A DNA stretch of 24,542 nucleotides from a virus: positions 1 through 24,542 of the IMG/VR virus record IMGVR_UViG_3300005529_000097. One strand, 5' to 3'. This document shows, in pieces, positions 4,308-17,286 of the stretch. Below the pieces are notes generated by a model that had not been told where the DNA came from, ran no database searches, and saw only the letters and a list, made by a program, of their open reading frames with translations. The position numbers were made by a program, and so were the translations under genes. Each line of letters opens with the position of its first letter. Positions within the stretch are counted from its first letter, which is position 1.

Positions 4308-4465
4308 CCGGCCGGCGTGGCGGCAAGGCAACCGCGACGCGCCGGGCCACCGAGCGTGCCGCTTCGGACGGGAAGCACGTCCATTACGCCGCCCGCGACG
4401 GGATGTGGTGCATCACCCGGCAGCCCATCGGGTTCCTGTACGTGCTGCTGACACGCCCGGCTTAG
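4304..4465 (+). CDS. Small basic hypothetical protein (53 aa)
   Basis: The 53-residue frame starts GTG at 4304, overlapping the stop of the DUF6221 gene (GTGA), and ends TAG at 4465. The N-terminal half is strongly basic (MTGRRGGKATATRRATERA); the second half has an aromatic stretch (HYAARDGMWCITRQPIGFLY). The coupling overlap and GC-rich third codon positions support a real gene. Function unknown; a nucleic-acid-binding peptide is possible from charge alone. Confidence 0.55.
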   Translation: MTGRRGGKATATRRATERAASDGKHVHYAARDGMWCITRQPIGFLYVLLTRPA

Positions 4466-4512
4466 TCACGCCGCGTCACGGTTTCGGTCACACGCCGTGG
4501 CACACTGTCACC

Positions 4513-5115
4513 ATGAGCAACCACCCGGCTCAGCGCCCCCGAAGCGGCAACGACGGAGCAGCCTCCCCGAACGGTGCGGCAGGCTTCACCAGAACCCCGG
4601 AGCAGGCGGCTGACAGCATCATGGCCCAGCATCTGGCTGGGCTTCAGCAGATCCTCGTGAACCTGCCCCGCATGGTCGCCGACGCGGTAGGGGTCGCGAT
4701 CCAGTCGTCCGGGCCGCTCGGGCTGTGCGTCACGTGCTTGGGGCGGCTGCAGGAGTGGCAGCGCGCCCACGGCGACGAGGTGGCGCTGGCGCGGGCGAAA
4801 GCGCTTGAGGCCGCCGGCGGGGACGAGGCCGCCGCGGCGGAGGGGATCATCCCGTTTCTGCGGCCCGAGCTGCGGCCCGGCGGGCCGGAGGCGGCGCCGT
4901 CGATCCTGAACGCGCAGATGATCGTGAACGGGACCGGGGTGTGCGTCCCCGACGCACCCGCGGCCGGGCTTGTGCCGCAGCAGGCGCAGCCGGCGCGGGC
5001 GCCGATCCTTGTCCCGCCGCCGGGGATGAGCCACGCCGCCGCCGTCCATGCGGCCCGCCACGACCCCAACCTGCCCGGAATGCCCGAGCAGGTCGCTGAG
5101 GGGATGAAGGGCTAG
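4513..5115 (+). CDS. Hypothetical actinophage protein with CxxC motif
   Basis: A 200-residue protein. Residues about 25-62 form an amphipathic helix region (QQILVNLPRMVADAVGVAIQ), followed by a CVTCLGRLQEWQRAH segment, an acidic/Ala helix, and a long Pro/Ala-rich C-terminal region. The frame is open from 4405, but ATG 4513 is chosen because upstream codons overlap the preceding gene and CACACT (4501-4506), a weak -10, lies six bases before it. I do not recognise a named family. Confidence 0.65.
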   Translation: MSNHPAQRPRSGNDGAASPNGAAGFTRTPEQAADSIMAQHLAGLQQILVNLPRMVADAVGVAIQSSGPLGLCVTCLGRLQEWQRAHGDEVALARAKALEAAGGDEAAAAEGIIPFLRPELRPGGPEAAPSILNAQMIVNGTGVCVPDAPAAGLVPQQAQPARAPILVPPPGMSHAAAVHAARHDPNLPGMPEQVAEGMKG

Positions 5116-5119
5116 CGGG

Positions 5120-5437
5120 GTGGGAACGGCGAAAGGAACCGCGACCCGTCCCACCGCTGCCGGGCTGATCCGCCGCGACTTCCACGGGGCGGTGCTGCTG
5201 AAGTACTACATCCCGCTGCCGGACGGCGGGAACGCTCAGGCGTTCATCGGCAAGGTGTCGGTGTTCAGCGACGAAGAGGCCCTCGGGTTCAAGGTCAGCG
5301 GCGGCGAAAGCAACTGGTGTGTCCGCGTCGCCGGGGCGTCGGCGGCGCTGACCTTTCCAGGCTGCCAGGTCCGCGCCGTCATCGCGCTCCCGGCCGGCGC
5401 AGGGGCGAAGAACACCGACTACTGGCCGGTTCCGTGA
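5120..5437 (+). CDS. Hypothetical protein, beta-rich
   Basis: A 105-residue protein alternating hydrophobic and polar residues in a beta-rich pattern (AVLLKYYIPLPDGG, FIGKVSVFSDEEA, WCVRVAGASAALTF). The start is GTG 5120, with AAGG (5107-5110) nine bases upstream; four bases separate it from the preceding stop. Its stop overlaps the next GTG (GTGA). Function unknown. Confidence 0.6.
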   Translation: MGTAKGTATRPTAAGLIRRDFHGAVLLKYYIPLPDGGNAQAFIGKVSVFSDEEALGFKVSGGESNWCVRVAGASAALTFPGCQVRAVIALPAGAGAKNTDYWPVP

Positions 5438-5601
5438 AGCTCCTGGCCGAGCACGACACACAAGCCGGCCCGCAGGCCACGGCCCGGGAGTTCCGGGTGA
5501 TCGGGACCGGCCGCGCGCTGCCCGAGGGTGCCCGCTGGGCCGGCACCTGCCCGCGCACAGCCGCGGGGGAAGTCTGGCACCTGTACGAGGTCACGCCGTG
5601 A
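5434..5601 (+). CDS. Small hypothetical protein (55 aa)
   Basis: A 55-residue protein read from the GTG at 5434, which overlaps the upstream stop (GTGA); its own stop overlaps the next GTG in the same manner. It has a REFRVIGTGRALPEGARW core and ends VWHLYEVTP, a pattern of two or three beta strands. The start inside the longer open frame (from 5317) is chosen by the coupling overlap. Conserved actinophage proteins ending in HLYE are common, but I assign no function. Confidence 0.6.
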   Translation: MKLLAEHDTQAGPQATAREFRVIGTGRALPEGARWAGTCPRTAAGEVWHLYEVTP

Positions 5602-5873
5602 CCGCACCCATCCAGGTCCGGGCCGGCCTGACCCTGCCCGAACGGCTCACCCTCCGCGAACTACTCGTGGACTGGTACGCCGAGCACGGCATCGACGAGG
5701 AACACGCCATGCGGCAGCACCGGGGGCCGTCCTGCTTCACCGGGGCGCCGCTGCACGAGCCGTGCGGCAGCGAGGGGCCGGGCGGCGTGGGGTGCATGTG
5801 CGAGTGCCACGACGCCGCCGCGCCCACTGAACGCGCCGCGCCGGTCCCGGCAGCCGAAGAGGCGGAGGTGTAG
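5598..5873 (+). CDS. Small Cys-rich hypothetical protein
   Basis: A 91-residue protein with an N-terminal helix (LPERLTLRELLVDWYAEHG) and a Cys/His cluster in its second half (C46, C56, C66, C68 and His70, the last part reading GCMCECHD), suggestive of metal binding. The C-terminus is Ala/Pro/Glu-rich. It starts at a GTG overlapping the preceding stop. Function unknown. Confidence 0.62.
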   Translation: MTAPIQVRAGLTLPERLTLRELLVDWYAEHGIDEEHAMRQHRGPSCFTGAPLHEPCGSEGPGGVGCMCECHDAAAPTERAAPVPAAEEAEV

Positions 5874-5875
5874 CG

Positions 5876-6268
5876 GTGCCCGTCATCGACTGCCACTGGT
5901 GCGCTGAGCAGCACGGCGACCTGCTGCTGTGCGCCCCGGCGAAACGGATCCTCGACGCCCTCTATGCCCGCGGCATGGAACTGAACATGCCCACGATCGA
6001 GTTCCCTGAGCCTGTCCACGGCGCGGGGATGTTCGGTGACGGCACGGTGCTGGTGTCGCAGTTGGTGGTGAAGGCCGCGGTCGTGCCGGTCGCTGGGGTG
6101 CACCAGCCGACCCTGATCTTCACCGGCCTGGACGCTGGGCGGCGGCCGTTGCCGTCGTGGGTGGTCCCGGCCGACGAGGAAGGGATCGGGGCGGTGGTGA
6201 AACTCGTCAGCGACACCGGGGACATGGCGGTCCGGGGAGCCAGGAAAGCGCGGCGGGAGGCGTCATGA
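5876..6268 (+). CDS. Conserved phage hypothetical protein, CxxC near N-terminus
   Basis: A 130-residue protein beginning with a CHWC motif (Cys6-x2-Cys9) and a further Cys at 19, then a helix (AKRILDALYARGMEL) and a beta-rich C-terminal part. The GTG at 5876 is preceded by GGAGG about six bases upstream; the stop overlaps the next ATG (ATGA). Metal binding is possible; no family is recognised. Confidence 0.62.
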   Translation: MPVIDCHWCAEQHGDLLLCAPAKRILDALYARGMELNMPTIEFPEPVHGAGMFGDGTVLVSQLVVKAAVVPVAGVHQPTLIFTGLDAGRRPLPSWVVPADEEGIGAVVKLVSDTGDMAVRGARKARREAS

Positions 6269-6600
6269 GCACAACCAGCGACCGGGGTGACCCGCGCCTG
6301 GGGCACGGCAGCGACACCGCACCGGTCCCCATGAACGACGTCTACCTCGTCCTGTCCGAGGAGGACCGGGCGAAAGGCTTCGTGCGCCCCGTCCGCCAGT
6401 CCTACCGGCACCGCGACCCCGGCTGCGAAGCCGTCACCACCATGTCGCGGGCCATCGCCGAGACCTACGCCCGCGACCCGGCGTTCTACGGAGCCACCTA
6501 CTGCACCGGCTGCCGGATGCACAGGCCGACCGGGGCAGAAGGCGAGTTCACCTGGATGGACGCCGCAGGCAACGACACGGGGGAGCTAGTCGGCACCTGA
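6265..6600 (+). CDS. Conserved phage protein with CxxC motif
   Basis: A 111-residue protein. The block DVYLVLSEEDRAKGFVRPVR, a conserved Cys in PGCEAVTTMSRAIAETYARD, and the closing YCTGCRMHRP are hallmarks of a small protein widespread in actinobacterial and other phages. The three Cys plus His could bind zinc. ATG 6265 is chosen within a longer open frame because it overlaps the preceding stop as ATGA. Function unknown. Confidence 0.75.
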   Translation: MSTTSDRGDPRLGHGSDTAPVPMNDVYLVLSEEDRAKGFVRPVRQSYRHRDPGCEAVTTMSRAIAETYARDPAFYGATYCTGCRMHRPTGAEGEFTWMDAAGNDTGELVGT

Positions 6601-6623
6601 CGCCTGACACATCGGGGGGTGTG

Positions 6624-7550
6624 ATGGCCAAGCAGCACGATCGGTACTGGGTCCACAGCGCGCCGGAGGATCTGCCCGGCGGCACCGAAGGGCTCCGGGA
6701 ATGCGGGAGGGGGCTGTGGTGCGCGGCCCGGCAAATCAACCCCGCCACTGAGCGGGTGATCACGCCGGCGATGTCGCCGCGGGCGTTCTGCATGAAGGAC
6801 GAGGGCATCATCGCCCAGGCCCTCCGCGACCTGCCGGCCGTGTACAAGCGGCTCGGGGCGGCGATCGGCGACCCGCAGTCGGCGGAGATCCTGCTGAGGA
6901 TGCCGTTCGGCCCGTCGCTGCCGATCCGCGGCGACGTCGACGAACTGCTCCGCCTGATCAAGGAGACGCTGGCCGGGTGGGAGGAACGGGTCCGCGCCGC
7001 CGCCGGGTGGACGCCGCTGGACACCCAGGAAACCCTCGCCCGCTCCTGGCAGGCCACGGTGGAGCAGGCATGCGAGACGCTGGGCAACCTGATCTGGACC
7101 ATGTTCGGGCTGGAGTACGAGCCGATGTGGCGGCCGAAACCGTCGCAGCGTGACATCGACGCCGGCGTGGCCCCCGAGGTGGTGCTCGCCGTCGAGGAGT
7201 CCGCCCTGGTGCTGCTCGACGGGGCGTGGGCCGGCAGGGAGATCCTCCGCATCGAGTACGGCGCCCGCGCGGTCATGCTCGAGACCGACCCGCAGCCCGA
7301 AGACCTGGTGGGGGTGCCGTGCCGCCGGCCGGGCTGCGACCACTACGCGCTGCGGCGGGCGGCGCTGCCGTCCCACGCGGGGGACACCGAGTTCTGGTCG
7401 CAATGCCAGGTGTGCGGGCACCTGATGACCCGCGCCGACTACGACGTCTGGGTCGGGCAACTGGCCGCCTTCCATCGGGCGCGACTGGCCGCGATGCCCG
7501 TGCTCGGCGCGGTCCCGGCGCCGTTAGCGACGACCGGGGAAGCCGCCTAG
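6624..7550 (+). CDS. Hypothetical phage protein with C-terminal zinc-binding motif
   Basis: A 308-residue, mostly helical protein. The N-terminal part has a Cys-containing conserved segment (GLWCAARQINPATERVITP); a middle helical region (about 105-165) is rich in Trp and Glu; the C-terminus has C233-x4-C238 and C261-x2-C264, a likely treble-clef or zinc-ribbon arrangement. A G-run at 6614-6619 is the ribosome site; ATG 6624 is preferred over the GTG at 6621, which sits almost on the G-run. This type of protein often precedes the terminase genes in actinophages; its role is not known to me. Confidence 0.75.
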   Translation: MAKQHDRYWVHSAPEDLPGGTEGLRECGRGLWCAARQINPATERVITPAMSPRAFCMKDEGIIAQALRDLPAVYKRLGAAIGDPQSAEILLRMPFGPSLPIRGDVDELLRLIKETLAGWEERVRAAAGWTPLDTQETLARSWQATVEQACETLGNLIWTMFGLEYEPMWRPKPSQRDIDAGVAPEVVLAVEESALVLLDGAWAGREILRIEYGARAVMLETDPQPEDLVGVPCRRPGCDHYALRRAALPSHAGDTEFWSQCQVCGHLMTRADYDVWVGQLAAFHRARLAAMPVLGAVPAPLATTGEAA

Positions 7551-8180: not shown

Positions 8181-8743
8181 TGCCACGCAGCAGTAACAAG
8201 GGCGGCCGCAGGCGCACCCTCGAGCAGGTCGGCAGGGACGCCGAGGCGCTCGCCCTGCACTGCCAGGGGAAGACCTACCGCCAGATCGCCACCGCGCTCG
8301 GCTGGAAGAACCAGGCCAGCGCGTTCCAGGCGGTGAAGCGGGCCATCGCCGACCGGCAGCGGGACAAGCTGGAGCAGGTTGACCACTTCACGCTGGCGAT
8401 AGCCCGGATCGAGGCCGGTCTGCGCACCTGCCAGGAGATCATCGACACCCCGCATTTCCTCGCCGCCCCGGGCGGGAAGATCGCCACCGTCTGGGACGCG
8501 GAACTGGAACGGGATGTGCCGGTGCTGGACGACGGGCCGAAGCAGCGGGCCATCACCGAGATGCGCCACCTCAACGATCAGCTCATCCTGCTGATGGACC
8601 TCAAGCCGCCGTCGAAGCAGCGGATCGAGGTTGTCACCGAGGACGTGGTGAACCGGGAGATCGAGAAGCTGACGAAGGAGATCGCCGATGCCGGGGGCGC
8701 CCCTGGTCCAGGCGTCGTCCGAGAAGCTCCAGCATCTAGCTAG
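8180..8743 (+). CDS. terS: Terminase small subunit
   Basis: A 187-residue protein beginning with a basic stretch and a helix-turn-helix (about 14-55, including GKTYRQIATALGWKNQASAF) followed by long charged helices, the usual plan of phage small terminases that recognise the packaging site and regulate the large subunit. ATG 8180 overlaps the preceding stop; GTG 8177 is also possible. The 3' end overlaps the large subunit gene by 56 bases in another frame, which supports the assignment by context. Confidence 0.8.
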   Translation: MPRSSNKGGRRRTLEQVGRDAEALALHCQGKTYRQIATALGWKNQASAFQAVKRAIADRQRDKLEQVDHFTLAIARIEAGLRTCQEIIDTPHFLAAPGGKIATVWDAELERDVPVLDDGPKQRAITEMRHLNDQLILLMDLKPPSKQRIEVVTEDVVNREIEKLTKEIADAGGAPGPGVVREAPASS

Positions 8744-10265
8744 GCTCCGGGAGCAGAAAGCCGCGATCGAGGCCGGCCGGATGGCCGGTCTCGACGTGTT
8801 CCCTCTGCTCGGCTACCAGCCGCACGCCCAGCAGCAGTTGTTCCACAACGCCACCGAATCGGACGTTTTGTACGGTGGGTCGGCGGGTGGCGGCAAGTCC
8901 GTCGCCATCGTCGCGGAAGGGCTGAAATGGTCAGCTAGGTACCCGAAGTTCCGGACCCTGCTGATCCGCCGCTCCTACGACGAACTGGAAGAAAGCATCT
9001 TCCCCGCGCTGCGGAAGTTCGCCTACGGGGAAGCGATCGGCGCCAAATGGAACGGGGTCAAGCGGGAACTGAGGTTCCCCAACGGGTCCCTGTTCCGGTT
9101 CCGCTACCTCGAATCCCTCGACGACGCCTCCCGCCGGCAAGGTGGCGAGTACCAGCTGCTCCTGGTGGACGAGCTCACCCTGATGGCACCCGGTGTCGTG
9201 GACTTCCTGCGGTACGAGCGGCTCCGGTCGGACGGCACGCTGCCGGTCGTCGGGGTGCGGGCCACCTCCAACCCGGGCGGCCCGTCGCACGCCGAGGTGA
9301 AAGACCGCTACATCGAGCCCACCGAGTTCGGCAAGAAGGTCGTACAGGACGGCCACGGGCTCACCGTGCGTTTCATCCCGGCCCGGGCCACCGACAACCC
9401 CCACCTCGACCGCGGGTACATGGCCCGCCTCGACGCCATCCCCGACCCGAACCGCCGCGCCGCGATGCGCGACGGCGACTGGTCGGTGTTCTCCGGCATG
9501 GTGTTCCCCGACTTCAGCCCGGACCGGCACATCATCGAGCCGGCCGAACTGCCCGCCTCCTGGCTGCGCTACTCGAGCGTGGACTGGGGCTACACCGCCC
9601 CGTGGGCTGTGCTGTGGGCCGCGGTGGACGAGGACAGCCGCGTGTGGGTCTACCGGGAACTATACGAAAAAGGCGTCGGCGAGGAAGACCAGGCGCGGCG
9701 CATCCTGGCCGCCGAGAACGAGGGCGAGCTAATCACTGCCCGCTGGGCTGACGACGCGATGTGGGCGCTGCGCGGGGACGCGAAGCCGATCGCCAGCGTC
9801 TACGCGGACGGCGGCGTGCACCTTACCCCGGCTGGCAAGGGGCCCGGGTCGCGGGTGCAGGGCTGGCAGCGGTGGCATTCCTACCTGGCCGAGGACGGCG
9901 CGTGCCCGCGCCACCGGGCGATGGGCTGGGAAACCTGCCCGAAGATCCACATTTTCTCCACCTGCCGCAACCTGATCCGCGAGATCCGCTCGCTCCCGTA
10001 CGCGACGGTGGGCAACCCCGAGGACTCCGACCCCAAGGCTGACGACCACTGCATGGACGCTGGCCGCTACCTGCTGGTCAACCTCGGCGGCGGTGCCCAG
10101 TTCTTCACCGCCCCGCCACCCCCGGCCCCGCTCGGCCCCGGTGCCCCGCTGACCCCGATGGGGAACTACGCCGTCCGGGACGCGCCCAAGGTGGCCGCCG
10201 CCGACCGGCGGCAGGGCGCCACCCAGACATGGCAGGACGCGCTGGCCTCCTCCCGCCCCACCTGA
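8688..10265 (+). CDS. terL: Terminase large subunit (DNA-packaging ATPase/nuclease)
   Basis: A 525-residue packaging motor. The ATPase half has a Walker A motif GGSAGGGKS (63-71), Walker B LLLVDE (157-162) and coupling motif TSNPGG (193-198). The nuclease half has acidic residues typical of the RNase H-like fold: SSVDWGY with D299, WADDAM with D355/D356, and DDHCMDAGRY near the C-terminus. ATG 8688 follows GAAGGAG with good spacing and overlaps terS by 56 bases. It translocates DNA into the prohead and cuts concatemers. The last about 65 residues are a Pro/Ala-rich tail. Confidence 0.96.
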   Translation: MPGAPLVQASSEKLQHLARLREQKAAIEAGRMAGLDVFPLLGYQPHAQQQLFHNATESDVLYGGSAGGGKSVAIVAEGLKWSARYPKFRTLLIRRSYDELEESIFPALRKFAYGEAIGAKWNGVKRELRFPNGSLFRFRYLESLDDASRRQGGEYQLLLVDELTLMAPGVVDFLRYERLRSDGTLPVVGVRATSNPGGPSHAEVKDRYIEPTEFGKKVVQDGHGLTVRFIPARATDNPHLDRGYMARLDAIPDPNRRAAMRDGDWSVFSGMVFPDFSPDRHIIEPAELPASWLRYSSVDWGYTAPWAVLWAAVDEDSRVWVYRELYEKGVGEEDQARRILAAENEGELITARWADDAMWALRGDAKPIASVYADGGVHLTPAGKGPGSRVQGWQRWHSYLAEDGACPRHRAMGWETCPKIHIFSTCRNLIREIRSLPYATVGNPEDSDPKADDHCMDAGRYLLVNLGGGAQFFTAPPPPAPLGPGAPLTPMGNYAVRDAPKVAAADRRQGATQTWQDALASSRPT

Positions 10266-10284: not shown

Positions 10285-12396
10285 GTGCAGCTAACCGGCC
10301 TCCTGCCGTGGCGTGTGGCCGAACGGAAACGGAACGCCGCACCCCCCACTACCCCGGCGCCGATCCCGGCGGGGTTCAGCGGGAAACTGCCGGCCCGGTC
10401 CGGGTTCATCCTCGGCGTCCCCCCGCAGGGCACCGACGCCAACGACTACAGCCAGGGCGCGGCCACCGAGACCGACCGCGGCACCCTCCTGCAGGAACTG
10501 TGGGAGGAATACCTCCGGTGCCCGTGGGCGTGGGCGTCAGTCAACGCCATCGCACGGACCGTCACCGCCGGCGGCCTGGTGATGAAATGGGACTCCGACA
10601 CCGGCGAAGGCGACCAGAAGCAGCCGGCCAAGCCGCCGCAGGTGCTGGCGTTCGAGCGGCTGCTGGCATTCTGCAACCCCGAGCAGGACATCCGCCAGCT
10701 CATGCGCAACGTGGTCGCCGACCTGCAGGTGTTCGCGGACGCGTTCATAGAGGTCGTGTGGCTCGGCAACCTGCCGGTGGCGCTGTACAACCAGGACTGC
10801 CCCACCACGTTCCCCGTCACCGACCAGCACGGGAACGTGACCGGGTACAAGCAGGTCACCGAGTACGGGCAGGAAGCGGACTTCGAGCCGCACCAGATCA
10901 TCCACATCTCGCTGGACTCCGCCCGCCCGTCGATGCTCGGGGTGTCCCCGACGCACGCGGCGGAAGAGTCGATCGTCGCGTGGATGTTCCTGCACTCGTG
11001 CGAGAAGGAAGCGGCCCGGCGCGGGCTGCCGCCGAACATCCACGCCGACCACCCGGCCGGGACGCCGGACACCGAGGTCACCAGGTGGCAGGACCAGTAT
11101 CAGGTCCGCAACATCGGCCCCCAGAACGTGGGGACGCCGATCACCACCAAGGGCGGCGGGAAGGTAAACGAGCTCCAGTCGGCGAAGCTGTCGGAAATCC
11201 TGGCGGCGAAGAAGGAAGCCCGCAACGAGATCGTCTCCTCCTACGGTGTCCCGCCCGCCAAGATCGGGATCATCGAGTCCGGGAACCTCGGCGGGGGCAC
11301 GGGCAGCGACCAGAACAAGACCTGGTTCCTCGACATCATCCAGCCGACCGGCGGCCTGGTCGCCGAGAAGATCCAGTTCCACCTCGCGGTGAAGGCGTTC
11401 GGCGTCATCGGCTGGCACGCCGAGTTCGCCGGCGTCGACTACCGCGACGACCAGACCATCGAGAACATCCGCGACATGCGGCTGCGCAACGGCGCCTGGA
11501 CGAGAAACCGGTACGCCGCCGACATCGGGGAGCCCCCGGTGGACGGCGGCAACGACCCGGTGCTGGTCGCCCGGCAGGACATCATCTTGTGGCGCGACAT
11601 GGCCGACCGGTCCCGCGCCGGGGTGGAAGCCCTCACCGGCGACCCGGCCACCGGGCAGGACGGGCCCGCCGCGGACGGCCCCGGCAAGCCCGGCCCCGCG
11701 CCGAACCCCGGGCCGGGGTCGGCGGTGGGGAACGAGGCGATCCGCGCCATCGTCGCGGCGGTCGTCGCCGAACTGCGCGCAGGCGACCCAGGTTCGCTGC
11801 TGCTCGAGCACACGCCGAAGCTCACCGCCGGCGACCGGGTGTGGAACCAGCTGTCCCGCAACTTCCCCGCCTCGTCGCTGGAATGGGTGAAGGACGCACG
11901 GTGGGAAGGCCCGGTGCTGCTGCACCCCGACCAGATCGCCACCGAAGACCTCCCCGAATGGACGGCGAGCCATGACGGGCCGGACGTGGCCCGGCTAAAG
12001 CGGAAACTGGGCCGCACCGGCAAGCTGAAGCCCGCGGTGCTGGTCCGCACCCCCGGGTCGCTCAAGGACGTCATCGTGGACGGCCACCATCATGTCCTCG
12101 CGGCGCTGGAAGCCGGGCATCAGGTGCGGGCGTACGTCGGGCATGTCGACGACGCCGTGGGCGGCTGGACAACCATGTCCACCCGCCAGCACCGCCGGGC
12201 CGAAACTGTGGGCGAGGCCGCCAAGGTGGACCCGCGGGACGTTCACTACCGGCCGGCCACCAGCACCGCCGAGCGGTGCGGGACCTGCGTCATGTTCCGG
12301 CCCAGGGGCGACGGCAGCGAAGGCGGCTGCACGATCGTCCGGGGCGTCATCGAGGCCGGCCATGTGTGCGACCGGTGGGCGGACAAGGAGGGGTGA
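10285..12396 (+). CDS. Portal protein fused to ParB-like domain and Cys-rich tail
   Basis: A 703-residue protein. Residues about 60-440 match phage portal proteins, the dodecameric ring at one capsid vertex through which DNA enters (the ALYNQDCPTTFPV region, a HISLDSARPSMLGVSP loop, and the helical stem). A Pro/Gly linker (451-482) leads to an extra region: a segment ending WVKDARWEGPVLLHPDQI, then a ParB/sulfiredoxin-like domain (about 540-625) with the signature VDGHHHVLAAL (598-608), and C665-x2-C668-x13-C682-x12-C695 at the end. Portal proteins are usually 400-520 residues. GTG 10285 follows GGGAGG by four bases. The fusion could bring a DNA- or nucleotide-acting domain to the portal vertex. 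Confidence 0.9.
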   Translation: MQLTGLLPWRVAERKRNAAPPTTPAPIPAGFSGKLPARSGFILGVPPQGTDANDYSQGAATETDRGTLLQELWEEYLRCPWAWASVNAIARTVTAGGLVMKWDSDTGEGDQKQPAKPPQVLAFERLLAFCNPEQDIRQLMRNVVADLQVFADAFIEVVWLGNLPVALYNQDCPTTFPVTDQHGNVTGYKQVTEYGQEADFEPHQIIHISLDSARPSMLGVSPTHAAEESIVAWMFLHSCEKEAARRGLPPNIHADHPAGTPDTEVTRWQDQYQVRNIGPQNVGTPITTKGGGKVNELQSAKLSEILAAKKEARNEIVSSYGVPPAKIGIIESGNLGGGTGSDQNKTWFLDIIQPTGGLVAEKIQFHLAVKAFGVIGWHAEFAGVDYRDDQTIENIRDMRLRNGAWTRNRYAADIGEPPVDGGNDPVLVARQDIILWRDMADRSRAGVEALTGDPATGQDGPAADGPGKPGPAPNPGPGSAVGNEAIRAIVAAVVAELRAGDPGSLLLEHTPKLTAGDRVWNQLSRNFPASSLEWVKDARWEGPVLLHPDQIATEDLPEWTASHDGPDVARLKRKLGRTGKLKPAVLVRTPGSLKDVIVDGHHHVLAALEAGHQVRAYVGHVDDAVGGWTTMSTRQHRRAETVGEAAKVDPRDVHYRPATSTAERCGTCVMFRPRGDGSEGGCTIVRGVIEAGHVCDRWADKEG

Positions 12397-12586: not shown

Positions 12587-12763
12587 ATGGCGCTGACGGT
12601 TCCGGTGGTGTGCGGCCGGTGCCAGTCCCGGAACGTCGTCCCGCACTGCGAGACGTCACCGAACTGCCCGTGGATCCACTGCCAGGACTGCCGGCACGTC
12701 ACCGGGATCGCGTTCGGGGAGCCCAGGGTCATCCCGGCGCTGCGGATGACAGGCGGCCGGTGA
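12587..12763 (+). CDS. Small zinc-ribbon protein in head gene cluster
   Basis: A 58-residue protein with CGRC (C9-x2-C12), two further Cys (C21, C27) and CQDC (C32-x2-C35) with flanking His, a likely zinc ribbon. ATG 12587 is two bases after the preceding stop; its stop overlaps the next GTG (GTGA). No function can be assigned. Confidence 0.62.
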   Translation: MALTVPVVCGRCQSRNVVPHCETSPNCPWIHCQDCRHVTGIAFGEPRVIPALRMTGGR

Positions 12764-12906
12764 ACGGCGACCCGGACCCCGAGCCGCCGCCCGAGGAGCC
12801 GTACACGCTACCCGGCACCACCCCGGCGTTCGAGCCCGCCACGCTGCCGAACCGGCCCGTCACCGCCACCGACGCTGCCCCGTTCATCCAGAAGATCATC
12901 GCGTAG
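12760..12906 (+). CDS. 48-residue protein sharing a peptide with the capsid N-terminus
   Basis: Read from GTG 12760, which overlaps the upstream stop (GTGA), this short, acidic, Pro-rich protein ends TDAAPFIQKIIA. The major capsid protein begins with GASPFIQKVIDP, so PFIQK(I/V)I is shared; the DNA over this stretch is also nearly identical (CCGTTCATCCAGAAG in both). The protein may be a capsid-interacting peptide or a relic of duplication. Otherwise unrecognised. Confidence 0.55.
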   Translation: MNGDPDPEPPPEEPYTLPGTTPAFEPATLPNRPVTATDAAPFIQKIIA

Positions 12907-13832: not shown

Positions 13833-15758
13833 GTGGCCAGGACGATCGCAACGATCGGCGGGACAGCGGTCGCGCCGGGAGTCAGCCTCAACCGCCGCTG
13901 GTACACCCGGCCCGTCATCGCCGCGGCGGTGGCGAAAGCACAGGAGCGGATCAGCAGCGACGGCTTGCCGCTCACGATGCTCACCCACCACGGCGCCGAT
14001 GACGATTCGACCCGCATTGTTGGCAAGGTCACGTCGATGTCGCTGGCCGAGGACGGTTCCGCCCGGTTCACCGCCGACATCGCTGACACCGAGCACGGCC
14101 GCACTATCGCGGCACTGGCCGACGATAGCGGCGACGGTGGCCCGTTCCTGAAGTCCATCAGCCTGCGCGGCGCGTGGGAGGGCAAGGTCAGCCGGGTCAC
14201 CGGCCCGGACGGCAAGGCCGCCGAGCGGGGTGAGGGGCTGAGCTTCGACGGGTTCGACTTCACCAAGACACCCGGCGTGGGTGCCGCGAAGCTCGACACC
14301 TTCGCCTGGGCGGCGGACGGCCAGCAAGAAACCACCGAGCGCGTGCTCATCACCGAGTCAGTGGAGGGGACCGTGACGGTCACCGAGACCACCGAGGACA
14401 CCACCACGGGCCAGGAGGCCCCGGCGCCACCCGCCGCCCCGCCAGAGGGCCTGCGGGAAACCCTGGCGGTGGTCCTCGGGCCAGTCCGCGAGGCCGACAA
14501 CGCCACCCCGGCCATGTCCAAGCGCGGCTCGGGGATGTCCGGCGGGGGCCGGAAGTGGGCGGACCCGGGCTACCAGAGCGACAAGAAGCAGCGTTACGAC
14601 ATCACCACCAAAGCCAAGGCGCTCACGGCGTGGCGGTACATCAACCAGGCCAGCAAGGCGGCCAAATACTCCTCATCCCAGCTGAAGAACATCAAGGGCC
14701 GCATCCGGTCCGCCCTCAAGGGTTTCGGTGTGTCGGTGTCCACCGAGTCGGCCCCGGGCTGGGGGTTCGAGGAAGCCCACCAGATCAGCGAGCCGGTGGC
14801 CGAGTACTACGGCGACTCGTCCCGCGCCGGGTCGTGGTGCGTCTCCGCGTCCAACGGCCCGGTCAACCTGTCGCTGTCCTCGTACTGCATGGACCCCGCT
14901 GACCTGGATGTCATCATCCGGGCGGCGGCCGACGCCGCCTGCAAGGCGCTTGCCGCGCTCGACCCGGACATGGACGGCGACGTCGATGTCCCCGGTGTGG
15001 GAGACGGCTCCGACACCGACCATGACAGCGGCCACGAGTCCGCGGAGGACCCAGAACTCACCGAGGCCACCGGCCCCGGTCAGCCCGCCGACGCGCGGGA
15101 AACTACCAACGGAACGGAGGCTCCCGTGACCACGGAGGCAACCACCACCCAGGGCGGGAGCGCCCCGTCCACCACCACGGCACCCGCCGCAACCGGCGCG
15201 TCCGCCCCGGCGGCCACCGAGACGGCCCCGGCCGCGACCGAGACTCAGGAGCAGCGCGAGAAGCGGCTCATCGCCGAAGCCCTCAAGGCTGCCGGCGTCA
15301 CGCCGCCCGTGGAGGAGACCCAGGAGCAGCGCGAGCAGCGGCTGATCGCCGAGGCTCTCAAGGCCGCCGGTGTCAGCCAGGCCGCCCCGGCTGCCCAGCC
15401 CACCCCGCCTGCACCCGCCACACCGGTCACCGAGACCGAGGAGCAGCGGATCGACCGCATGGTCGGCGAGCGCCTGGCCGCGGCCGGGCTCAAGCCGCCG
15501 GCCGAGGTCACCGAGGAGGAGAAGATCGACCGGATCGTCACCGAGCGGCTGCAGGGCATGGTCGCTGACGGCTCGATCCAGGTCCGCCGCTCTGGGCTGC
15601 TCGTCCGCGAGCACAACGTCCCCACCGGCGAGGCCGACAACCCCGGCAAGACCGAGGGTGAGCTGGCCAAGACCAGCGAGGACGAGTTTTTCGACTACGC
15701 CGGCGCGGCGCTGGTGAAGAACGCCGAGCACACCAGGGCGTTCGGCGGCAGCCGCTAA
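13833..15758 (+). CDS. Prohead protease fused to DUF6582-type segment and scaffold
   Basis: A 641-residue protein with three parts. (1) Residues about 1-165 resemble HK97/herpes-type (U35/S78) prohead proteases: LTHHG (50-54) and FLKSISLRG (105-113) are the likely His and Ser regions. (2) Residues 240-300 (KWADPGYQSDKKQRYDI onward) resemble the DUF6582-type phage segment, followed by NGPVNLSLSSYCMDPADLDV and an acidic loop DPDMDGDVDV like a calcium-binding loop. (3) Residues 471-576 carry four TQEQRxxRLIxExLKAAG-type repeats, a helical scaffold-like region. It should cleave and shape the prohead before DNA entry. Internal GTG codons with good ribosome sites may give shorter scaffold products. 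Confidence 0.82.
   Translation: MARTIATIGGTAVAPGVSLNRRWYTRPVIAAAVAKAQERISSDGLPLTMLTHHGADDDSTRIVGKVTSMSLAEDGSARFTADIADTEHGRTIAALADDSGDGGPFLKSISLRGAWEGKVSRVTGPDGKAAERGEGLSFDGFDFTKTPGVGAAKLDTFAWAADGQQETTERVLITESVEGTVTVTETTEDTTTGQEAPAPPAAPPEGLRETLAVVLGPVREADNATPAMSKRGSGMSGGGRKWADPGYQSDKKQRYDITTKAKALTAWRYINQASKAAKYSSSQLKNIKGRIRSALKGFGVSVSTESAPGWGFEEAHQISEPVAEYYGDSSRAGSWCVSASNGPVNLSLSSYCMDPADLDVIIRAAADAACKALAALDPDMDGDVDVPGVGDGSDTDHDSGHESAEDPELTEATGPGQPADARETTNGTEAPVTTEATTTQGGSAPSTTTAPAATGASAPAATETAPAATETQEQREKRLIAEALKAAGVTPPVEETQEQREQRLIAEALKAAGVSQAAPAAQPTPPAPATPVTETEEQRIDRMVGERLAAAGLKPPAEVTEEEKIDRIVTERLQGMVADGSIQVRRSGLLVREHNVPTGEADNPGKTEGELAKTSEDEFFDYAGAALVKNAEHTRAFGGSR
14363..14375 (+). promoter_or_regulatory. 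Possible internal translation start in protease/scaffold gene
   Basis: GGAGGGG (14363-14369) lies three bases before an in-frame GTG at 14373 (residue 181), at the end of the protease part. Initiation here would give a product with the DUF6582 and scaffold parts only. Spacing is short, so this is the weaker of the two candidates. Confidence 0.35.
15116..15128 (+). promoter_or_regulatory. Possible internal scaffold start
   Basis: GGAGG (15116-15120) lies five bases before an in-frame GTG at 15126 (residue 432), just before the Thr/Ala linker and scaffold repeats. Initiation would give a 210-residue scaffold-like protein, like the nested Nu3 of phage lambda gene C. Proposed from sequence only. 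Confidence 0.5.
15243..15560 (+). repeat. Four helical repeats in scaffold part
   Basis: Four copies of a T(Q/E)E(Q/E)(R/K)xxRxxxExL-type unit begin at residues 471, 496, 535 and 560, spaced 25, 39 and 25 residues. The first two are almost identical (one residue of 19 differs); the last two are diverged. They predict charged amphipathic helices, consistent with scaffolding. Confidence 0.7.
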
Positions 15759-15812: not shown

Positions 15813-15909
15813 CGCACGCCAACCCTGACCGCCAGCGCTGAAACATGCCCTGGTGCCCCCGGGCGGAGACGGTCGCCAGTTCCCTCCAACCCGGAAGGAG
15901 TCACATACC

Positions 15910-17286
15910 GTGACTAGCCAGGTTCGTGAGGCGCTGACCGCTCTCGGCGCGTCTCCGTTCATCCAGAAGGTCATCGACCCTGTCCTGGTCGAGCTCCAGC
16001 GCCGGTACGCGCCGCTGGTGCGGTCCATCCCGTCCCAGCGGTGGACGACCGACGTCTACAACTTCAACCAGCGCACCACCGTCCCCGGCGGCGGTTTCGT
16101 CGTGGACGGCGGCTCCCGGCCGCTGACCTCCAGCACGTACGTGCAGAACAGCGTCCAGATGAAGCACATCCTGTCGGTGGGCGCTGTCACCGGCTACGCG
16201 GAGGCGATCACCTCCGACCTCATCGGGTCGCTGCGGCGCACAGAAATTATGGGCGCCACCCAGGGTTTCTACTGGGACGTGGAGACCGGCATCTGCTGGG
16301 GCAACGCCGCGTCCACGATGAACGGCGCGCAGCCGCAGTACGACGGCCTCGACACCCTCGTGTCCGACTTCACCTCCGGGTACTTCAACTCGGTCGACTT
16401 CGCGCACGGGACGTTCTCGCTGGGCACGATGGACAAACTGATCGACATCATCGCCCGCAACGCGAAGGTGCCGGTCGAGAACTCCAACTGGCAGTTCGTG
16501 CTGTCCACCACAGCCAAGAGCAAGGTCTCGCAGCTGCTGGTGAACCAGCAGCGGTTCGAGCAGGTCGAGATCGCCGCCGGCCTGGTCGTGGACACCTACC
16601 GCAACATCCCGATGGTGCCCACGTCGTTCCTGTCGCCGGCCGGGTACGCCATGGGCGCGGTCACCGCGACCACGGCGACCACGGGCGGGTCGATCCCGGC
16701 GTCTACCACGTTCTACTACAAGGTGGCGCCGGTCATCTCCCGCCAGGGCGAGGCGCTGCCTTCGGGTGAGGTCTCCCAGGCCACCGGGTCCGGGACCGGC
16801 ACCAACATCATCACGCTCGCGTTCACCCCGCCGACCGGCGAGGACGGCCTCTCGGCGCAGCTGTACAAGGTGTACCGGGGCACGGCGTCGGGGAGCGAGT
16901 CGTTCCTCGGCTACGTGGACGCCTCGGTCGGCCTGATGTCCGATGGGGTGACCCCGATCCCGACCACGTCGATCATCGATACCGGCACGGCGCTGGTCCC
17001 GCAGAACGGCTCCACGGTGCCGGGGACGCTGCCCACGGCGTACTACGGGACGAACGCGAACCTGCTGCCCCCGGCGGCCGGGGACGAGTCGATCTACCTG
17101 ATCAGCCGGGTCAAGAACAACGTGGTCCGGCCGTACGTGCGAGAAGCCAGGCCACTCGATGTGTATCCAACCACGGCCAGCCCGGACAGCCTGCCCTACG
17201 CACTTATCGGAGATACGTGCTTCGCGGTGCGTGCCTCCCGGTTCGTCGCACGGGCGGCCCGGGTCGCGGTGTCGCTGACCTCCTGA
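15910..17286 (+). CDS. Major capsid protein (HK97-like) with inserted beta domain
   Basis: A 458-residue protein starting at GTG 15910, nine bases after GGAAGGAG; an upstream in-frame ATG (15853) has no such site. The N-terminal part (VREALTALGASPFIQKVIDP onward, with the DVYNFNQRTTVPGGGFVVDGG region) and C-terminal part fit an HK97-like capsid subunit. Between them, residues about 248-381 form a beta-rich insertion resembling an Ig/fibronectin type III domain (TTFYYKVAPVISRQGEALPS, LYKVYRGTASG). Inserted domains like this decorate some capsids from outside. It should be the most abundant structural protein. Confidence 0.88.
   Translation: MTSQVREALTALGASPFIQKVIDPVLVELQRRYAPLVRSIPSQRWTTDVYNFNQRTTVPGGGFVVDGGSRPLTSSTYVQNSVQMKHILSVGAVTGYAEAITSDLIGSLRRTEIMGATQGFYWDVETGICWGNAASTMNGAQPQYDGLDTLVSDFTSGYFNSVDFAHGTFSLGTMDKLIDIIARNAKVPVENSNWQFVLSTTAKSKVSQLLVNQQRFEQVEIAAGLVVDTYRNIPMVPTSFLSPAGYAMGAVTATTATTGGSIPASTTFYYKVAPVISRQGEALPSGEVSQATGSGTGTNIITLAFTPPTGEDGLSAQLYKVYRGTASGSESFLGYVDASVGLMSDGVTPIPTTSIIDTGTALVPQNGSTVPGTLPTAYYGTNANLLPPAAGDESIYLISRVKNNVVRPYVREARPLDVYPTTASPDSLPYALIGDTCFAVRASRFVARAARVAVSLTS

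Follow-up and report, generated by a model that had tools for sequence, protein, structure and literature searches.

A viral portal protein with ParB/sulfiredoxin-like and HiPIP-like C-terminal domains, two modules that recur and shuffle among phage head proteins

The window analysed here is the whole contig of an uncultured virus in IMG/VR (24,542 bases), and its head genes include one open reading frame of 703 codons, in which a portal protein is followed by a linker and two further domains (Table 1). The frame starts with a GTG codon, which is preceded by a GGGAGG-like ribosome site, and GC3 lies between 0.88 and 0.95 across the portal, the linker, the ParB-like part and the tail. The portal is of the HK97/PBSX type, with PF04860 matching residues 82-367 above its cut-off, and these significant models, together with a terminase gene upstream and protease and capsid genes downstream, identify the product as a phage portal protein. 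An initial annotation had described a portal fused to a ParB-like domain and a four-cysteine tail, and this is borne out by the uninterrupted frame and by the recurrence of the fusion in relatives. Internal stops and frameshifts between the domains were looked for in 10285-12396 and none is present; a programmed frameshift or separate genes are thus ruled out by the one continuous frame. The extent that had been proposed for the added part, 11635-12396, holds for the two folded domains, while the remainder includes low-complexity linker sequence.

Table 1. Head genes of the window and domains of the fused portal protein, with the basis of each assignment
Feature	Position	Strand	Basis
Portal - linker - ParB/sulfiredoxin-like domain - HiPIP-like domain, 703 aa	10285..12396	+	Open frame, HMM matches, GC3, dN/dS
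Portal region, residues 64-468 (approx.)	10474..11688	+	PF04860 5e-20; PHROG 12 6e-28
Gly/Pro/Ala-rich low-complexity linker, residues 451-510	11635..11814	+	Sequence; conserved in L010
ParB/sulfiredoxin-superfamily domain, residues 511-632	11815..12180	+	AF2 model, Foldseek PDB, profiles (SerK, SbnI, Noc, ParB)
HiPIP-like domain, residues 647-703, probable [4Fe-4S] site	12223..12393	+	PF01355 below cut-off, profile, AF2, Foldseek
Terminase large subunit	8688..10265	+	PHROG 979 3e-33; PF04466 1e-5
Head maturation protease-like protein with DUF6582	13833..15758	+	PHROG 207 2e-6; PF20223 2e-9
Major capsid protein	15853..17286	+	PHROG 752 5e-25; PF17236 2e-5

Two further frames of the window were noted. 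A short ORF of about 48 aa just 3' of the portal gene (12763-12906, plus strand; EPPPEEPYxLPGTxPAxEPxTLPNRPxTAxDAAPFxxKIIx) is conserved, being also present in L002, L004, L005 and L010, and a DNA polymerase III beta-clamp look-alike, judged by eye from its translation, lies at 673-2313 on the minus strand, opposite to the head genes.

The first of the two added domains contains the stretch VDGHHHVLAAL (residues 598-608, at 12076-12108), which had originally been read as a ParB/sulfiredoxin signature, and structure prediction confirms the fold. With an alignment of 38 members, the AF2 model reaches a pLDDT of 94-98 over residues 511-632, and in Foldseek searches of the PDB superfamily members fill most of the top ranks, namely PadC, KorB, ParB, plant sulfiredoxin (TM 0.67 to the target), Noc, free serine kinase and SbnI. 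Structure prediction and profile search had been suggested as checks in the initial annotation, and by both of them the relatives keep this fold; by profile, the closest solved structure is free serine kinase (SerK, 5e-6), followed by SbnI (2e-3) and by Noc and ParB (both about 1e-2). No Pfam model, PF02195 included, recognises the window domain, which is absent both from the nine members with weak matches to ParBc_2 and from the six with weak matches to ParB_N. Within the central motif DG is invariant and is followed by R or H at G+3, the variants being DGHHR (16 members), DGHHH (14, the window among them), DGWHR (4), DGHTR (3) and DGAHR (1).

Membership of the ParB/sulfiredoxin superfamily is therefore settled by fold and profile, whereas identity as a ParB clamp is not. 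A CTPase clamp or a nuclease acting on incoming or packaged DNA, the function originally favoured for this domain, would be in keeping with the common superfamily fold, with PadC, KorB and ParB among the best fold matches, and with the DdrB-like ParB domains of phage P1, which are packaged and predicted to be DNases (PMC5512222). However, HMM searches of the window protein matched no HTH or dimerisation family, the GERR motif of clamp-type ParB proteins occurs in none of the 38 aligned members, and the arginine of GxxR is replaced by histidine in 14 of them, including the window. Furthermore, the nearest profile is that of a serine kinase, and a Pyrococcus furiosus homologue of SerK was itself once called a nuclease, and the enzyme from Thermococcus kodakarensis turned out to be a serine kinase (PMC5120207). 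Support for the clamp or nuclease reading ends at the shared fold, and we regard it as improbable; the related idea that the portal extension marks the packaged end of the genome is unsupported. Instead of a DNA clamp, the domain is most likely an enzyme or switch that binds NTP or NDP, of the kind represented by SerK and sulfiredoxin. The alignment with SerK spans only SerK residues 27-82, the rest of that protein being absent and a HiPIP fold standing in its place, and at the position of the catalytic Glu30, which falls in a weakly aligned stretch, the profile consensus has Ala. The GCHR motif, which holds the catalytic cysteine of sulfiredoxin, is missing from all 38 members. The nucleotide that a superfamily member binds, if it binds one, is unreadable from sequence (PMC12704722).

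The second domain, the tail, has exactly the cysteine spacing first noted for it, C-x2-C-x13-C-x12-C (C665, C668, C682 and C695, at 12277-12369), and is preceded by Tyr655. In an alignment of 23 such tails the Tyr, the four Cys, a Gly and a Met are invariant. Taken alone, the window tail matches PF01355 at 0.0095 (16.6 bits, below the Pfam gathering cut-off of 22), and among solved structures the HiPIP PioC comes closest to it (E 0.024). Matches to PF01355 at E <= 0.1 were obtained for 12 of the 23 alignment members (best 9.9e-5), and the profile built from all 23 finds the HiPIP of R. marinus (3h31) at 6e-9 and PioC at 2.5e-8. The best of five AF2 models of the tail has a pLDDT of 94 (range of the five, 60-94), and HiPIPs take all of the first 17 places among its Foldseek matches in the PDB, ahead of the HiPIP-like small subunits of glycyl radical enzymes. 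With only 57 residues, modest E-values are to be expected for single Foldseek matches (they are 0.01 and above), so that the fold call draws on the agreement of the ranks. By four-Cys spacing and predicted fold the tail thus belongs with the HiPIPs, with a Pfam score below the cut-off.

Either zinc or an iron-sulfur cluster had been considered for the cysteine set, and the second option has fared better. Four cysteines by themselves leave the metal undefined, and a zinc knuckle that merely resembles a HiPIP would also fit the sub-threshold Pfam match of the window; against it stand the invariant Tyr ahead of the cysteines, the HiPIP spacing, the profile E-values and top fold matches that are HiPIPs exclusively, which makes such a knuckle quite doubtful. 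Because model, fold ranks and profile agree on a HiPIP fold, a [4Fe-4S] cluster is likelier than zinc, and the modelled domain probably binds one such cluster.

Related HiPIP-like modules exist beyond the window. The tail of L036, the same module in another position, is 47% identical to the window tail. In BFVD, a collection of predicted viral structures, hits to this fold include phage proteins that bear the names HiPIP, XkdF, prohead protease, zeta toxin and, of particular note, ParB/Sulfiredoxin, as well as SppA-type protease proteins, the single E-values being weak; given the proteins named HiPIP, such folds in phages are not new to automatic annotation, although our literature search found no paper on them. 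Free-standing HiPIP-like proteins of about 60-85 residues (L067-L078; WGLSKxxANYRPA...) were found in 11 of 396 genomes of the phylum to which the metagenome-assembled genome (MAG) described below belongs. Two of their neighbourhoods were checked, both of them ordinary chromosomal ones, and it is plausible that the phage module has its cellular relatives in these small proteins.

About 30 viral contigs, near-identical ones among them, and one contig of a Streptosporangiaceae MAG encode a portal fused to a ParB-like domain. The same C-terminal fusion in viral relatives and in a MAG contig excludes an assembly artefact. The scan for the ParB-like domain, which was not exhaustive, yielded 29 loci in 2.9 million contigs. 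Separate scans for the tail, seeded with the window and L036 tails and later with wider alignments, did not contain the ParB-like part in the query and gave 30 viral loci, 17 of which also hold a ParB-like domain, in the same polypeptide (12 loci) or in a neighbouring gene (5 loci). With near-identical contigs merged, this corresponds to about 15 of 26 loci, given here as raw counts.

The order of the modules varies widely. Portal-ParB-HiPIP is found in the window, L039 and L040, and in L043 with a head-protein-like stretch ahead of ParB; further arrangements are portal-ParB-HiPIP-Nudix (L042, L044), portal-Nudix-ParB-HiPIP-2H (L041), portal-HiPIP-Nudix-ParB (L050), portal-ParB-Nudix-HiPIP-MuF (L052), portal-HiPIP-ParB (L057) and portal-HiPIP-ParB with a MuF-like part, judged by eye, between the last two (L036, L047). 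The portals themselves belong to different families, PF04860, PF06381 and PF06074 in the case of the ParB-like module and PF04860 and PF06074 in the case of the HiPIP module. Distances between ParB-like domains and between HiPIP modules are weakly correlated (Mantel r 0.41 with a near-duplicate pair and 0.23 without it), and the two modules therefore mostly move separately and need not work as one unit. In the combined model of both domains the tail falls below a pLDDT of 55, so that no interface between ParB-like and HiPIP domains is predicted.

These data bear on the possibility that the two domains form a redox pair, in which the HiPIP cluster feeds electrons to, or gates, the enzyme of ParB/sulfiredoxin fold. 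HiPIP folds are classical one-electron carriers, and the modules are physically linked in 12 polypeptides, with HiPIP directly after ParB in several of them. Yet Nudix or MuF domains often lie between the modules, which vary largely independently, most ParB-like portals found here have no HiPIP module, and the sulfiredoxin motif is missing. We consider such a pair very improbable, and the same low probability attaches to a more elaborate proposal, in which a portal-fused HiPIP coupled to a nucleotide-dependent enzyme of ParB/sulfiredoxin fold would serve as a redox-gated device for counter-defence or take-over, released with the genome.

Gain and loss of the tail can be followed in a close relative, L010, whose portal carries the ParB-like domain and no tail. 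Its ORF stops after the ParB-like part and is directly adjoined by the next gene, and the difference from the window is a clean indel, that is, gain or loss of the tail module. In the available pairs amino-acid changes are rarer than silent changes in the portal, the linker, the ParB-like part and the HiPIP module (ParB-like dN/dS about 0.35 for the window against L010; HiPIP pN/pS 0.08-0.16 in other pairs), and both added parts are under purifying selection between relatives.

Several variants were observed in the course of these comparisons. L011 carries two tandem ParB-like domains on one portal (4390-6783), and L034 (1618-6426) and L056 (1892-6340) are portal fusions with intein-like Hint/LAGLIDADG or intein-splicing domains, inserted within the portal domain in one of them and after MuF in the other. 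In L062 (4549-7044) the HiPIP-like module adjoins a domain that is also present in minor head proteins, endolysins and DarB-like antirestriction proteins. L041, L042, L046 and L053 have a small domain (PHROG 6439 in L042) that either comes after the HiPIP module or ends the same protein, and in L053 it matches Streptomyces and Microbacterium phage proteins named capsid maturation protease or ADP-ribosyltransferase. The matches of the L053 HiPIP gene in these phages are confined to that other domain (query residues 73-162).

Among named phages, none with the portal-ParB-HiPIP form was found, and Sonali, Gilgamesh, Pam4 and Bm1, which were considered as carriers, have neither module. The HiPIP profile found nothing in the L037 genome, and when genomes were searched across the family with the ParB-like profile, weak general matches were all that appeared outside L037's own genome. 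Other candidates were set aside individually: a downstream match in L001, taken for a HiPIP in a second frame, does not contain such a Cys motif; the tblastn match of the tail to McGalleon gp28 has an E of 2 and apparently runs against the coding sense annotated for that gene; mycobacteriophage ribonucleotide reductases match the tail at E 5-10; matches of the first profile to UVR8 are chance matches of the repeat type; and those of L044 in T4-like phages concern Nudix only.

The C-termini of portal proteins lie inside the capsid. About 12 copies of the extension would therefore be locked inside the head, and what had been envisaged at the outset, a ring with twelve copies and their carriage in the particle, is a reasonable inference given portal biology and the Nudix, 2H and MuF domains that recur next to these modules. 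The flexible linker could then be the site at which the head maturation protease, encoded slightly downstream, frees the modules, and these would act at the start of infection, like the Nudix, 2H and MuF domains that occupy this place in related phages. Seen in this way, the portal C-terminus would be a head-internal cargo region of interchangeable modules with a role in early infection, a proposal that we hold at about even chances. Location, release, delivery and target of the modules are all inferred, with the delivery step borrowed from related architectures, in which Nudix, 2H and PBECR fusions to MuF or portal proteins are read as head-packaged, injected effectors (PMC5512222, PMC9503650).

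Since the same fold occurs in head proteases, the main rival to the cargo proposal is a structural role of the HiPIP domain. Here, the added domains would be structural or morphogenetic, the HiPIP being a metal-stabilised docking module for portal, protease and scaffold and the ParB-like part binding DNA or nucleotide during packaging, with nothing delivered. The BFVD matches, which comprise XkdF and head proteases as well as toxins, are consistent with this, as are the small separate HiPIP genes directly behind ParB-carrying head genes (L053, L058), the occurrence of HiPIP-like small subunits in glycyl radical enzymes, and the precedent of lambda gpL, a virion protein with an Fe-S cluster of unknown function (PMC10721106). 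A portal, however, needs no extra signal to reach the head, the ParB-like domain also occurs away from portals, on a 2H phosphoesterase (L027, L031, L032), and L010 lacks the tail, which is thus dispensable for assembly there. A purely structural role appears unlikely to us, albeit a serious competitor to the cargo proposal.

Electron transfer in bacteria is the textbook role of HiPIPs, and their recurrent fold in phage head proteins raises the testable question of metal clusters in virions; the recurrence of an iron-sulfur-type module on portals makes the finding one of fair interest. Scans seeded with one module by itself place the ParB-like and HiPIP domains in a common pool of shuffled parts, to which Nudix, 2H and MuF also belong. 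The nucleotide range of the ParB superfamily has only recently been opened up, in a PF02195-based survey (PMC12704722) which may have missed the window domain, as this has no match to that model.

The fused portal can be compared with several known systems. SerK and SbnI belong to the same superfamily and have the stretch KPxxLxxxPGxxxxxIVDGHHR in common with the phage domain, which lacks the rest of SerK and any context of amino-acid metabolism. The CTPase clamps ParB, Noc and KorB share the N-terminal ParB fold and differ in the clamp-specific motif and domains discussed above, and sulfiredoxin shares the fold without its catalytic cysteine being retained. Members of the HiPIP family (PF01355, including PioC and the R. 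marinus protein) resemble the tail in fold, in four-Cys spacing and in the Tyr before the first Cys, whereas the phage module is fused to a portal, scores below the Pfam cut-off as a single domain and has a predicted metal site. In the cultured Arthrobacter phage Sonali, gp3 is a portal-Nudix-MuF fusion with its modules at the same position as those of the window, the ParB-like and HiPIP-like ones being absent. DdrB of phage P1, a polyvalent protein, has a ParB-superfamily domain (PMC5512222), and its family is distinguished by an extra helix with a Tyr and by a conserved active-site Arg, at which the window has His. A ParB/sulfiredoxin-like domain on portals is unreported in the available passages of PMC5512222 and PMC9503650; the words "HiPIP" and "iron" are absent from the former text (2017), and "ParB" and "iron" from the latter (2022). 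A close parallel is offered by the polyvalent and MuF- or portal-fused virion effectors as a group, which combine enzyme domains (Nudix, 2H, PBECR, ART and others), location in head gene clusters and shuffling in the way seen here, and this published theme of portal- and MuF-fused virion enzymes is extended by two modules, neither of which we found described on portals in the literature.
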